Source: a virus. From it: a DNA stretch of 28,656 nucleotides. Every line of letters starts with the position of its first letter. Position 1 is the stretch's first letter. Of the stretch, positions 766-6,330 are shown piece after piece. The notes beneath the pieces were generated by a model. That model was not told where the DNA came from. It saw nothing but the letters and a program-made list of their open reading frames with translations, and did no database searches. The DNA lies in the IMG/VR virus record IMGVR_UViG_3300025872_000234, positions 1 to 28,656 of that record. One strand, 5' to 3'. The position numbers and the translations under genes were made by a program.

Positions 766-1215
766 TTAACTTGTTAATCCCTCTTTGGTGAAGATGCATC
801 CGAATTTTTTACTTCTATCAGTCATCCACCTACGAGCCTCTTCGCTTGTGTTTATCCACTTATTTCCGTCGAACTTGCGACCTACAATCTCTACCTCTCC
901 CTCTGCAAAAGGAGTGATTTTCAACTCTCCGTTAACAATCTCATAGTGAGTGTCAGTTATCATTGCCTCTTGGAAGCCTCCGTTGGTGATTGAGTATGAG
1001 TAACTGAATGTTTTCAGTAACCGAAGTCCATCAGGTAGTGTGTATACCACAAAGTAACGGCAGTACTCGTATCCGTTACCCTTATCCACCTTATAGAATT
1101 GAACATTCTCGTACTTGGATACATAGCGTTCAACATTGCTCTCCCATACTTGGGGGTTGTAATCTCTGCCCTCGTCTTGTTTAATCTGCTCTGCAGTCAT
1201 TTTTGTTGCTTTCAT
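766..1215 (-). CDS. Hypothetical protein (149 aa)
   Basis: The start is chosen at ATG 1215-1213 (MKATKMTAEQIKQDEG) rather than at the frame's upstream ATG at 1257, because MKAT repeats the start of the neighbours and the extension would run through the GAAA-loop hairpin at 1231-1244. It is the largest minus-strand gene here. It contains an aromatic-rich stretch (YEYCRYFVVYTL) and a strand-rich centre ending EVEIVGRKFDGNKW, suggesting a small beta-rich domain followed by a helix (SEEARRWMTDRSKK). No known family was recognised. It is the first gene downstream of the structured noncoding region, so that region may be its leader. Confidence 0.6.
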   Translation of the reverse strand: MKATKMTAEQIKQDEGRDYNPQVWESNVERYVSKYENVQFYKVDKGNGYEYCRYFVVYTLPDGLRLLKTFSYSYSITNGGFQEAMITDTHYEIVNGELKITPFAEGEVEIVGRKFDGNKWINTSEEARRWMTDRSKKFGCIFTKEGLTS

Positions 1216-1230
1216 GTTGCTTGGTTTTAT

Positions 1231-1306
1231 GAGCGTTTCCGCTCGGTTAGTTCCCATGCCGAGTGTCGAACTCGGTTATCTCACGATAAAGTGCATCACT
1301 CATGGG
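1231..1306 (-). ncRNA. Candidate structured RNA: four-way junction plus GAAA hairpin
   Basis: Read on the minus strand, this stretch folds with almost no unpaired bases. A closing helix CCCATG/CATGGG (1306-1301 with 1258-1253) encloses three hairpins that abut without spacers: AGTG/CACT (1300-1290, loop ATG), TTATC/GATAA (1289-1276, GTGA loop, a GNRA tetraloop) and CCGAG/CTCGG (1275-1259, loop TTCGACA, which matches the tRNA T-loop consensus). After eight bases comes GAGCG/CGCTC (1244-1231) with a GAAA tetraloop. GNRA loops appear only when the minus strand is read, so the minus strand is the likely RNA. It ends 15 bases before the MKAT gene at 1215. It could be a cis-acting leader, the 3' end of a larger RNA, or a tRNA-like element. 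It is not a standard tRNA, because the anticodon-position loop has only four bases. The pairing is seen directly; the role is inference. Confidence 0.5.
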
Positions 1307-1680
1307 CTTGCAACTCCGACCACCTGCGTATCGGTAACTCTCAGAGAGCCTCACTAATCATTCCCTCTCCGAGCCTCAGGATTACTACTTACAATCGCTA
1401 GTCAATTGCCGCCTAGTCAACTAGGGAGGAGCATCCACAACTTCGATTACTTTATTCATCATCCGAAACCAACTGCGAATTGGCGTCGTGTCCGTTGTAT
1501 CGGCTACCTTAACTATGTATTACGACGTCTGCCCATGCTTGGGACTTCGTATCCGTCAGGTGTGCATATCTGCCAACGACTTGTCTAAGCGTAACCACCG
1601 ACCGCCGTCGGCTTTTATGCTCCCCTGAGTATTGGATGATATCACATCATTCACTCAGGAAAGGAGGGCATCTCTTAAAC
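1307..1680 (-). other. Hairpin-rich noncoding region, possible large RNA
   Basis: No credible gene lies here. Short helices are dense: CCTAG/CTAGG (1412-1416 with 1421-1425), CAAT/ATTG (1392-1395 with 1405-1408), CCAA/TTGG (1469-1472 with 1480-1483, extended by a G-U pair only on the minus strand), CCCA/TGGG (1532-1535 with 1540-1543) inside TACGA/TCGTA (1521-1525 with 1547-1551), CCGAC/GTCGG (1598-1602 with 1607-1611) inside GCATA/TATGC (1564-1568 with 1616-1620), and CCTGAGT/ACTCAGG (1624-1630 with 1653-1659). TTGACTAG occurs twice on the minus strand. Together with the four-way junction this suggests an RNA of roughly 450 bases, in the size range of large phage RNAs such as GOLLD or ROOL, though I cannot match it to either. 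Confidence 0.35.
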
Positions 1681-1780
1681 AACTTCGGGGCAGACTTTCA
1701 AAGAACTTTCAGCAATATTACGGACTTTTTTGAACATAGATACACTACCCACCAATCTTTTAACATATTTTAACAAATGA

Positions 1781-1858: not shown

Positions 1859-1879
1859 TATTTAGAATGATTCTAAATA
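1859..1879. promoter_or_regulatory. Perfect 21-bp dyad, operator candidate
   Basis: Arms TATTTAGAAT (1859-1868) and ATTCTAAATA (1870-1879) are perfect inverse complements around one G. Ten matched pairs with a one-base centre is unlikely by chance and typical of a binding site for a dimeric repressor. It lies in the intergenic region between the minus-strand small genes and the plus-strand genes. No regulator gene can be linked to it within the window. Confidence 0.45.
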
Positions 1880-2985: not shown

Positions 2986-3015
2986 TTGGTGGTTTAGAAA
3001 AGATTATTACATTTG
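2986..3015 (+). promoter_or_regulatory. groEL promoter, TTG-N19-TACATTTG
   Basis: TTG at 2986-2988 and TACATTTG at 3008-3015 are separated by 19 bases, the best full match to the Bacteroidota sigma consensus in the window. Transcription would begin near 3020, about 15 bases before the chosen ATG at 3037. This also argues against a TTG start at 3013, which lies inside the -7 box. Confidence 0.7.
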
Positions 3016-3036
3016 CCATCAATCAATTTTAATTCA

Positions 3037-4656
3037 ATGGACTTCAACACAGGCACGGGCTACACGCCCAAGGACATGGCCTTCGATTCAGAGGGTCGTG
3101 TGAAACTAATCAGTGGAATAACCAAGATGGCTAATGCGGTCAAGAGCACGTTGGGGCCTAGCGGCAACACGGTTCTGATCGAGTCGCCCCACCACACTCA
3201 TGGGATCACGGTGACCAAGGACGGGGTGACGGTGGCGAGGGCTGTTGACCTGATCGACCCGGTGGAGAACTTGGCGGTTAGGATGATGAAGGAGGCGGCT
3301 GACAGGACGGCCACGAGTGCGGGCGACGGGACGACCACGGCTATTGTTCTGACCGAGGCCTTGGTCAAGGGTGGCTTGGAGATGATAGGTCCGGAGCACA
3401 ACAGGACAGAGGTGTTAAGGCAGATGGTGGACATGAGCAGTAAGGTGGTGGACAAGCTAAAGAAGAAGAGCAGGAAGCTAACGAGTTCGATGCTGTTGGA
3501 TGTGGCAACCATATCGGCCAACAACGACAGGGAGGTAGGCAAGATTATCGCTGAGGTGTACCGTGGGGTTGGCAAGAACGGTATAGTGACGGTGGAGAAG
3601 AGTCAGACCTCGGCCACATATTCTGAGACCACCAAGGGACTAAAGGTGGAGAGGGGTTACTCAAGTCCGCTGTTCATTAATGATCAGAAGCGTGACGAGT
3701 GTATACTTGAGGACGTGATGGTGCTAGTGGCCGACATCGAGATTAATAATATTTTACAGATAGAGCAGGTGCTAAAGCCTATTATTACCGAAGGTAAAAA
3801 ATTGTTAATCATTGCGCCATGTAACACCAACGTGATAAATACCTTTGCGGCTAATGTGATGAAGGGCAACCTTAAGGTGTGTGTGATACCACCGCCGGGC
3901 TTTGGGTACAAGCAGCACGAGCTGATGCAGGACATTGCGGTTAGCGTGGGTGCTACATACTTCAGCGAGAAGACAGGCGATGACCTGAGCCTGATAAACT
4001 TCGGTGACCTAGGCCACGCAGCTAAGGTGATCGTGGACAGGGACAAGTCGATCATACTCAAGTCCACTGCCCGCAGCAAGGCTGACGTGATAGAGGACAG
4101 GGTTAAGCAGTTGTGGGACGCCCATGCGATGGCGACCAAGAAGGGAGACAAGGACTTTATATTGGAGCGCATCGCTTCGCTGACGGGTGGTATCGGTGTG
4201 ATCTTCGTTGGTGGCAACACTGACCTAGAGCAGAAGGAGCTGTACGACAGGGTTGACGATGCGGTGTGTGCTGTACGGTCGGCATTGGAGGAGGGCATCC
4301 TTCCCGGTGCAGGCAAGGCACTGTATGACATAAATGTTTGGCACACGCTTCCTGACACTGTAAACGCCGATCAGGACGCAGCGGCAAGGATACTAGAGAG
4401 GGCACTCATTGCGCCGCTCACTCAGATACTAGAGAACGCAGGGATCAAGGTTGCTGACGTGTACAAGGGCGGAAGCGATGGCGATGGACTAGGGTACAAC
4501 TTAAAGACAGGTAAGTTTGGGGATTTGATAGAGATGGGTGTGGTTGACCCGCTGAAGGTGACAAGGTCTGCACTTGAGAACGCTGTGAGTGTTGCAACGA
4601 CAATACTTAGTACAAACGCAATAATTACAATGGCAAGGTCGTATGAGAAAGTTTAA
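3037..4656 (+). CDS. groEL: Phage-encoded GroEL-type chaperonin (539 aa)
   Basis: GroEL forms ATP-driven double rings that fold proteins with the GroES lid. The start is set at ATG 3037 (MDFNTGTGY) because a possible TTG at 3013 lies inside the promoter. The protein is full length: equatorial nucleotide motifs TLGPSG (38-43) and AGDGTTT (95-101, Asp97 at the position of E. coli Asp87), a complete apical domain with PPPGFG, and RVDDAVCAVRSALEEG, with Asp408 at the position of the hydrolysis residue Asp398. Two departures from bacterial forms are visible: Ser42 replaces the usual Lys of TLGPKG, and the Gly-Gly-Met tail is missing, the protein ending ARSYEKV. GC content of the gene is visibly higher than in its neighbours. 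groES lies about 320 bases downstream. It probably folds virion proteins. Confidence 0.95.
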   Translation: MDFNTGTGYTPKDMAFDSEGRVKLISGITKMANAVKSTLGPSGNTVLIESPHHTHGITVTKDGVTVARAVDLIDPVENLAVRMMKEAADRTATSAGDGTTTAIVLTEALVKGGLEMIGPEHNRTEVLRQMVDMSSKVVDKLKKKSRKLTSSMLLDVATISANNDREVGKIIAEVYRGVGKNGIVTVEKSQTSATYSETTKGLKVERGYSSPLFINDQKRDECILEDVMVLVADIEINNILQIEQVLKPIITEGKKLLIIAPCNTNVINTFAANVMKGNLKVCVIPPPGFGYKQHELMQDIAVSVGATYFSEKTGDDLSLINFGDLGHAAKVIVDRDKSIILKSTARSKADVIEDRVKQLWDAHAMATKKGDKDFILERIASLTGGIGVIFVGGNTDLEQKELYDRVDDAVCAVRSALEEGILPGAGKALYDINVWHTLPDTVNADQDAAARILERALIAPLTQILENAGIKVADVYKGGSDGDGLGYNLKTGKFGDLIEMGVVDPLKVTRSALENAVSVATTILSTNAIITMARSYEKV

Positions 4657-4749: not shown

Positions 4750-4984
4750 AGAGATCCTTGAGAGCTACCCCGACGAGGAGTTCCTAAAGGCGGATGGTTT
4801 CGATGATGCCATCGTTGGCGTCGAGGTGTACTCCAACAGGCTAGTGTACTCGGCGCAGATAGCAATTCAGATTTTAATAAACGACGAGGGCATGATAGAG
4901 GAGGACGCCATCGAGCACCTGTACTACAACGTGATAGGATCCTATGTAGGACCTCAGACACCACTATGGATAGACACACTATGA
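4736..4984 (+). CDS. Conserved phage hypothetical protein (82 aa)
   Basis: The protein begins MTKLEEILESYPDEEFLKAD and ends with SYVGPQTPLWIDTL. The layout of a start helix, a FDDAIVGVE segment, a long helix and a C-terminal GSYVG.(K/Q)TP motif resembles a small protein I recall from many unrelated tailed phages, with no established function. It is acidic and has no cysteine or membrane span. Its stop overlaps the groES start (ATGA at 4981-4984), so its translation is probably coupled to that of the co-chaperonin. Confidence 0.75.
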   Translation: MTKLEEILESYPDEEFLKADGFDDAIVGVEVYSNRLVYSAQIAIQILINDEGMIEEDAIEHLYYNVIGSYVGPQTPLWIDTL

Positions 4985-5238
4985 GGGCAATAGGAAAATA
5001 TATTATCATCCAACCAATAGAGGAGGAGATCAAGACCAAGTCAGGACTTATCCTTTCGGGTGAGGACGCCAATCAGTTTCGCTACAAGAAGGGCACGGTT
5101 GTAGAGCCGGGCACGGACGTGCCGAACATAAAGGCGGGCGATATCATATACTATGACAAGGCACATGGATTCACGATGATAATTCAGGAGGTTCAGTACT
5201 CCGTGATTCAAGAGCGAGACGTCGTTGTTGTCGAATAA
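4981..5238 (+). CDS. groES: GroES-type co-chaperonin (85 aa)
   Basis: The start is placed at ATG 4981 (MRAIGKYIIIQPIEEE), which overlaps the preceding stop as ATGA; the longer frame from 4966 adds only MDRHT. The cpn10 fold is clear: an N-terminal strand, a mobile loop KTKSGLILSG whose hydrophobic LIL tripeptide is the GroEL contact, a KKGTVVEPGTD strand, a KAGDIIYYDK turn and the C-terminal ERDVVVVE strand. At 85 residues it is about ten shorter than typical bacterial GroES, mainly around the roof loop. It closes the chaperonin operon. Its last 68 bases overlap the convergent minus-strand gene. Confidence 0.85.
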   Translation: MRAIGKYIIIQPIEEEIKTKSGLILSGEDANQFRYKKGTVVEPGTDVPNIKAGDIIYYDKAHGFTMIIQEVQYSVIQERDVVVVE

Positions 5239-6157: not shown

Positions 6158-6330
6158 TGGCAAAGAAAGTAGTTAAAGAAGAAGAGCAGCCTAAGTCCGG
6201 GTTGGTGGAGAACACCAACGAGGCGGTTGCTTCCCCTGTTCAATCTAAAGAGATTAAGGTTGAAGAGGTAAAGGCTGAGGAAGTAAATCCTCATACTATT
6301 GGTTTAAGTACTAGAGCATACCGTCAGTAA
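6157..6330 (+). CDS. Small charged protein (57 aa)
   Basis: The ATG overlaps the preceding stop by one base, and its own TAA overlaps the next ATG in the same way. Unlike its neighbours it is mixed in charge: MAKKVVKEEEQPKSG, then KEIKVEEVKAEEVNPHTIGL and a terminal STRAYRQ. The middle may be a short helix. No family is recognised. Its place inside a tightly coupled set of tiny genes is the main support. Confidence 0.65.
   Translation: MAKKVVKEEEQPKSGLVENTNEAVASPVQSKEIKVEEVKAEEVNPHTIGLSTRAYRQ

Follow-up and report, generated by a model that had tools for sequence, protein, structure and literature searches.

tRNA genes carried by phages are usually read as translation helpers. RNase P and RNase Z recognise a tRNA by its acceptor stem stacked on the T arm, and the same part, an acceptor plus T stem-loop, makes up the tRNA minihelices that act as minimal RNase P substrates. 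Among larger phage RNAs, GOLLD, ROOL and ARRPOF are multi-domain, several hundred nucleotides long and located in intergenic regions. crAss-like phages carry both ordinary and suppressor tRNAs (PMC7886860), and hammerhead ribozymes are known from phage intergenic regions (PMC3088659).

The window (the whole stretch of DNA analysed, 28,656 nt) is a 28.7-kb piece of a virus record, and its source is a Bacteroidota podovirus of ~60 kb. The terminase (TerL) displays 81% identity to that of MW202828, a 60.9-kb podovirus from Manatee Spring that is the nearest relative known by its complete genome, and 45% identity to terminases of the Flavobacterium elemo phages. Minus-strand genes from 1215 downward form the early arm and groEL at 3013 opens the late arm, "early" and "late" being labels derived from gene content and not from expression; the 1.8-kb gap between groEL and the first early gene is mostly non-coding. 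GroEL (phrog_5725, 3013-4656, plus strand) is followed by a GroES-like reading frame (4966-5238, plus strand), the latter recognised by eye. The first early gene, MKAT (766-1215, minus strand, 149 aa), is an open reading frame whose homologues in the Flavobacterium phages MaF61 and elemo are weak, and no homologue was found in viral contigs. Three early-arm genes (starting at 1215, 735 and 420, minus strand) open with an identical ATGAAAGCAACAA after an AACA-type leader, which suggests a common translation-start context.

Upstream of MKAT, the minus-strand segment 1306-1253 forms a four-way junction of 20 base pairs in four helices with zero unpaired junction bases, as a sequence-only reading had proposed and as both the letters and RNAfold confirm. 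An acceptor-like helix CCCATG/CATGGG (1306-1301 with 1258-1253) is joined by a mini-hairpin AGTG-ATG-CACT (1300-1290), a GNRA hairpin TTATC-GTGA-GATAA (1289-1276) at the position of a long variable arm, and a 5-bp T-arm-like hairpin CCGAG-TTCGACA-CTCGG with a G-C closing pair (1259-1275, minus strand). The hairpin loops measure 3, 4 and 7 nt, the 7-nt one being the T loop, and none of the hairpins is a 7-nt anticodon loop on a 5-bp stem. The claimed agreement of TTCGACA with the tRNA T-arm consensus (TTCRANY loop) holds for the 5-bp stem, the G-C closing pair and the rest of the loop but not for its last base, which is A where the consensus has a pyrimidine. The GTGA hairpin is present in both sequence and fold, and the GAAA-tetraloop hairpin GAGCG-GAAA-CGCTC, described by the same reading, lies between junction and gene (1231-1244, minus strand). 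Ahead of that hairpin, the stretch 3' of CATGGG (1258-1253) reads AACTAACC, with ACTAA (1247-1251) immediately 3' of the acceptor-like strand. The hairpin at 1244-1231 was rejected as an intrinsic terminator, having no U run behind it; the next letters are ATAAAACC. The junction does lie upstream of the MKAT start at 1215, as proposed, but with a gap of 37 nt rather than directly before it.

RNAfold returned the four-helix shape as both minimum free energy (MFE) and centroid structure (-20.5 kcal/mol, z -2.77), with one extra T-U pair within the T loop, and 3 of 200 shuffles folded as well; the junction with its flanks gave -30.5 (z -2.84). A fold scan of the whole window, comprising 1040 windows, placed the 110-nt minus-strand windows starting at 1211 (z -3.8) and 1541 (z -4.9) among the ten strongest. 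Another strongly folding stretch, 6161-6326 (plus strand), was dropped as coding. When the T loop was not required, perfect four-way junctions occurred nine times in 2.07 Mb-strand (window plus related phage loci), and this count, like the lack of a sequence homologue for the junction, would suit a chance fold or a tRNA remnant without function. Such an origin is nevertheless unlikely: a descriptor combining the junction with the T loop matched nothing else in 1.27 Mb of loci, which are almost entirely related phage DNA, the fold has a z-score of -2.8, and four of four helices are intact. The junction observation is real and beyond chance, mainly because of the T arm.

Searches for known families and homologues returned little. 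ARAGORN predicted no tRNA in the window and RF00005, the Rfam tRNA model, detected none. Of the covariance search that had been proposed earlier, the Rfam part was run over the window at gathering score and then at E 10; it yielded nothing relevant (group I intron, tmRNA, RNase P RNA and other Rfam families were unmatched), and no family matched the element even at the looser setting. The junction RNA gave nothing with blastn in phages, plasmids and E. coli genomes, isolated chance matches only for its exact 17- to 35-mers in viral contigs, and nothing for one pattern in genome contigs. DNA searches of the related phages' whole records, and searches with R1, a covariance model whose only input was the window element and its structure, revealed no second copy of the junction.

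Applied to 395 Bacteroidia genomes, R1 produced five matches with E < 0.01 per genome, and all five overlap tRNA genes, four of them tRNA-Leu and one tRNA-Gly. The best tRNA-Leu shares an ACTAACC flank with the window element, and in two other tRNA-Leu genes the alignment places the GTGA hairpin on the long variable arm. These matches are a pointer, not proof, a per-genome E of 1e-4 being weak across 395 genomes, and tRNAs may top the list simply as the commonest RNAs with a T arm. The class II tRNA-Leu of Bacteroidota (RF00005) is like the junction in its acceptor-T-arm stack, its G-C-closed TTCGA T loop and its long variable arm where the junction has a hairpin, and the A-CTAA 3' flank of the junction is in register with one retrieved tRNA-Leu gene. 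In contrast to tRNA-Leu, the junction lacks a D arm, has a 3-nt loop in place of the 7-nt anticodon loop, a 6-bp acceptor and no single-stranded junction bases, and is missed by ARAGORN and RF00005.

The early arm probably has a structured leader, ~490 nt long and behind a plausible promoter, with the junction at its 3' end. The leader RNA, with inferred ends, probably spans 1216-1707 (minus strand) between the gene and a promoter-like site, a putative -7-like element TAATATTG (1713-1720, minus strand) identified by eye; similar elements precede early genes of relatives, TAATATTG in locus L115 and TAGTATTG in L113, again by eye. The stretch 1720-1225 folds beyond shuffles (z -2.3), and the leader has two strong domains, the junction and a 5' domain (1527-1695, minus strand; fold z -3.0, window scan z -4.9) closed by the 8-bp helix GTCTGCCC/GGGCAGAC (1695-1688 with 1534-1527). 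It had been suggested that the element could be a tRNA-like structure, a cis-regulatory leader or the end of a larger noncoding RNA; each of these is supported in part, through its position at the leader end and its best matches to tRNAs, and they are not mutually exclusive.

A possible, if somewhat doubtful, alternative is an ornate phage RNA of larger size (~490 nt), noncoding and without kinship to tRNA, in which the junction would form the 3' domain, the T loop would be a common tertiary-contact module and the function would be like that of GOLLD, ROOL or ARRPOF. T loops are found in many RNAs, the second domain at 1695-1527 with its 8-bp closing helix is strong, the whole stretch folds with z -2.3, and no minus-strand ORF of at least 60 aa accounts for it; the leader also resembles the three named RNAs in length, domain number and intergenic position. 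However, the covariance models of GOLLD, ROOL and ARRPOF found no match in the window, no large-RNA family of Rfam was matched even at E 10, the leader, unlike those RNAs, gave no covariance-model match to any Rfam family, and both the tRNA likeness and the position parallel tRNA-like elements of other phages. Cis-regulatory control of MKAT translation by the junction, for example by holding ATG 1257 in the acceptor-like strand, appears unlikely. The junction does lie 37 nt before ATG 1215, and ATG 1257 is within a helix and in frame with MKAT; but ATG 1215 is probably the true start because its MKAT string recurs in two other early-arm genes, an open extension of 14 codons would arise by chance in about one case of two, and there is no sign of an alternative fold.

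tRNA-like elements were found in related Bacteroidota podoviruses as well. RF00005 gave nine matches in 7 of 48 related records, two of which ARAGORN calls tRNAs, the rest being irregular. Gathering loci via two genes downstream of such elements provided 160 loci (L160-L319), in which ARAGORN found only six tRNA genes, whereas a descriptor of a 7-bp acceptor plus T arm identified 39 distinct elements, all 39 sense to the downstream gene, as against 0-2 in local shuffles. They lie mostly 17-80 nt, and up to 172 nt, upstream of the ORF, which in most cases is a small gene with the motif FADGFSFKRNE or one with DNLWxTxDVT, and in some phages they occur as tandem copies. Examples of the family are L241:1414-1479, L176:1351-1422 and L122:5592-5633 (minus strand). 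R2, a covariance model of this family, detected between one and three copies per record in 25 of the 37 phage records. Several of the elements share the terminal ACTAA of the window element. The set is apparently previously undescribed: in the library searched, titles and abstracts on phage tRNA-like elements and RNase P, on tRNA punctuation in phages and on degenerate phage tRNAs name no such family.

With the T-loop motif alone as selector, 51 candidates were obtained on the sense strand and 15 on the antisense strand. All five T-stem pairs are formed in 45 of the sense candidates, 42 of which also have an upstream 7-bp acceptor partner, and none of the 15 antisense candidates has a full T stem. 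After scrambling of the acceptor letters, a partner was found for a mean of 2.7 of 41, compared with 38 observed. In the alignment both sides vary in 7 of 7 acceptor pairs and 3 of 5 T-stem pairs; the acceptor count is partly circular because the elements were picked by complementarity, and the test that selects by the T-loop motif alone outweighs it. Between element pairs at least 78% identical, a comparison restricted to elements passing the descriptor, nearly all changes in the arms keep the pair (A-U to U-A, U-A to C-G), the only exception being A-U to G-U. The acceptor and T stems of the relatives' elements are under selection, and covariation is seen for these elements only.

The region between the arms behaves differently: close orthologues show it changing at ~2x the rate of the arms, and in distant ones it can no longer be aligned. 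When the acceptor and the T arm were fixed, folding yielded no regular 7-nt anticodon arm; in the middle region L241, for example, has CGAGG-CTG-CCTCG and L163 a 9-nt loop. A hypervariable middle might reflect an arms race or a cargo, the RNAs being decoys for host tRNA-attacking enzymes (anticodon nucleases, tRNA-sensing defences) or scaffolds for a variable small RNA, and the twofold faster, eventually unalignable middle and the tandem copies in some phages are consistent with this. The same fast drift is equally expected, however, if acceptor and T arm alone matter, no link to a defence system emerged, and we consider a decoy or scaffold the least probable of the explanations weighed here. 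In a separate locus, L125:2831-2961 (minus strand) holds an intergenic 131-nt tRNA-Leu-like RNA with a long insert at the anticodon-arm site, within the groEL-containing arm.

Whether the window element belongs to this family was assessed with R2, which scored it at 9.3 bits (E 3), third among nine noise-level matches, with the T arm and ACTAA in register. The ACTAA register of several relatives holds if base 1252 is taken as position 72, unpaired with G1307. The window acceptor has 6 continuous base pairs, and a seventh would be G-A, where the family has 7 bp; the lack of a D arm and the A as last T-loop base also count against membership. The placement, on the sense strand 37 nt before ATG 1215, matches that of the relatives. 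Like the window element, the relatives' elements (R2; nearest Rfam family RF00005, partly below cut-off) combine an acceptor with a T arm in sense orientation close before an ORF, several have the ACTAA flank and some have short-loop hairpins replacing the anticodon arm. Unlike it, they mostly have a Leu-type D arm and a 7-bp acceptor, and most stand before other early genes. The window element is best called a "divergent or convergent tRNA-like element", belonging to the family at best as an outlier.

Structures at the matching place in other phages were compared. In G032, a 42-nt minihelix of acceptor and T arm, the very minimum of an RNase P substrate, precedes the first large early gene by 36 nt; the 208-aa gene behind it was rejected as an anchor for a wider leader comparison, being present in only 2 of 46 records. 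The window element shares the acceptor-plus-T-arm architecture of the minimal substrates but differs from them in its natural position in a phage mRNA leader, and its cleavage is putative. The leader of MW202828 contains GCGCT / AAGGTC-ATA-GGCCTT / CGTGG-TTCGAGGT-CCATG / AGCGC followed by CCTAAC, spotted by eye, that is, an acceptor, a 3-nt-loop hairpin and a T-arm-like hairpin ~76 nt before the first early gene. Alone it folds weakly (z -0.4), and in the MFE structure of the full leader the acceptor 3' strand is paired elsewhere. Only this structural likeness is used here, because, at the sequence level, the MW202828 leader aligns with the window element no better than shuffles do. In elemo phages, as in Flavobacterium phage elemoA_15-9B (MT497069), a type III hammerhead (L134:2993-3049; RF00008 at 36.3 bits and E 7e-5, short of the gathering score) marks the leader end just before the first early gene. 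It occupies the same genomic place as the window junction but is self-cleaving and has an unrelated fold; covariance models of the hammerhead and other Rfam self-cleaving ribozymes found no match at the window leader.

What these observations would most simply have in common is a cut that parts the leader from the early mRNA: the kept arms suit RNase P and RNase Z, the elements stand in sense before genes, and the elemo hammerhead lies at an equivalent place, which fits a need to cut there. Our tentatively preferred reading sees in the junction a reduced tRNA-like element that lacks a decoding arm, closes the structured early-transcript leader on its 3' side and most likely is a processing signal for RNase P and RNase Z. 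Once these host enzymes had cut out or trimmed the junction, leader RNA and early mRNA would be two molecules, each with defined, protected ends. The window element would then be a divergent family member that is transcribed and processed. A bolder proposal, and one we hold to be rather unlikely, is that anticodon-less tRNA-like RNAs serve as mRNA punctuation in Bacteroidota podoviruses and are cleaved by the tRNA-processing enzymes of the host in the manner of mitochondrial tRNA punctuation; the window junction would be a maximally reduced form in the early leader, interchangeable with the hammerhead of other phages.

In the related phages, acceptor and T stems are selected without a normal decoding arm, always in sense and ahead of genes. 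As processing marks, these elements would mean that RNase P and RNase Z of the host are borrowed for organising phage transcripts; as decoys or cargo scaffolds, they would represent a new kind of phage small RNA. tRNA finders miss most of them, and cultured flavophage systems make testing easy.

Several repeats and palindromes accompany these regions. The short palindrome GTGTCTTCAAAGACAC, in places as a close variant, recurs near early promoters and just ahead of tRNA-like elements in L111, L113, L115, L116, L120, L163, L191 and L198. Upstream of the window leader lies a 21-nt palindrome TATTTAGAATCATTCTAAATA (1859-1879, minus strand), with a near-identical site in Polaribacter phages Freya and Danklef, which is perhaps a regulator site. 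Finally, the inter-arm region of the window contains seven imperfect tandem copies of GTCGTTTGTT at 2040-2112.
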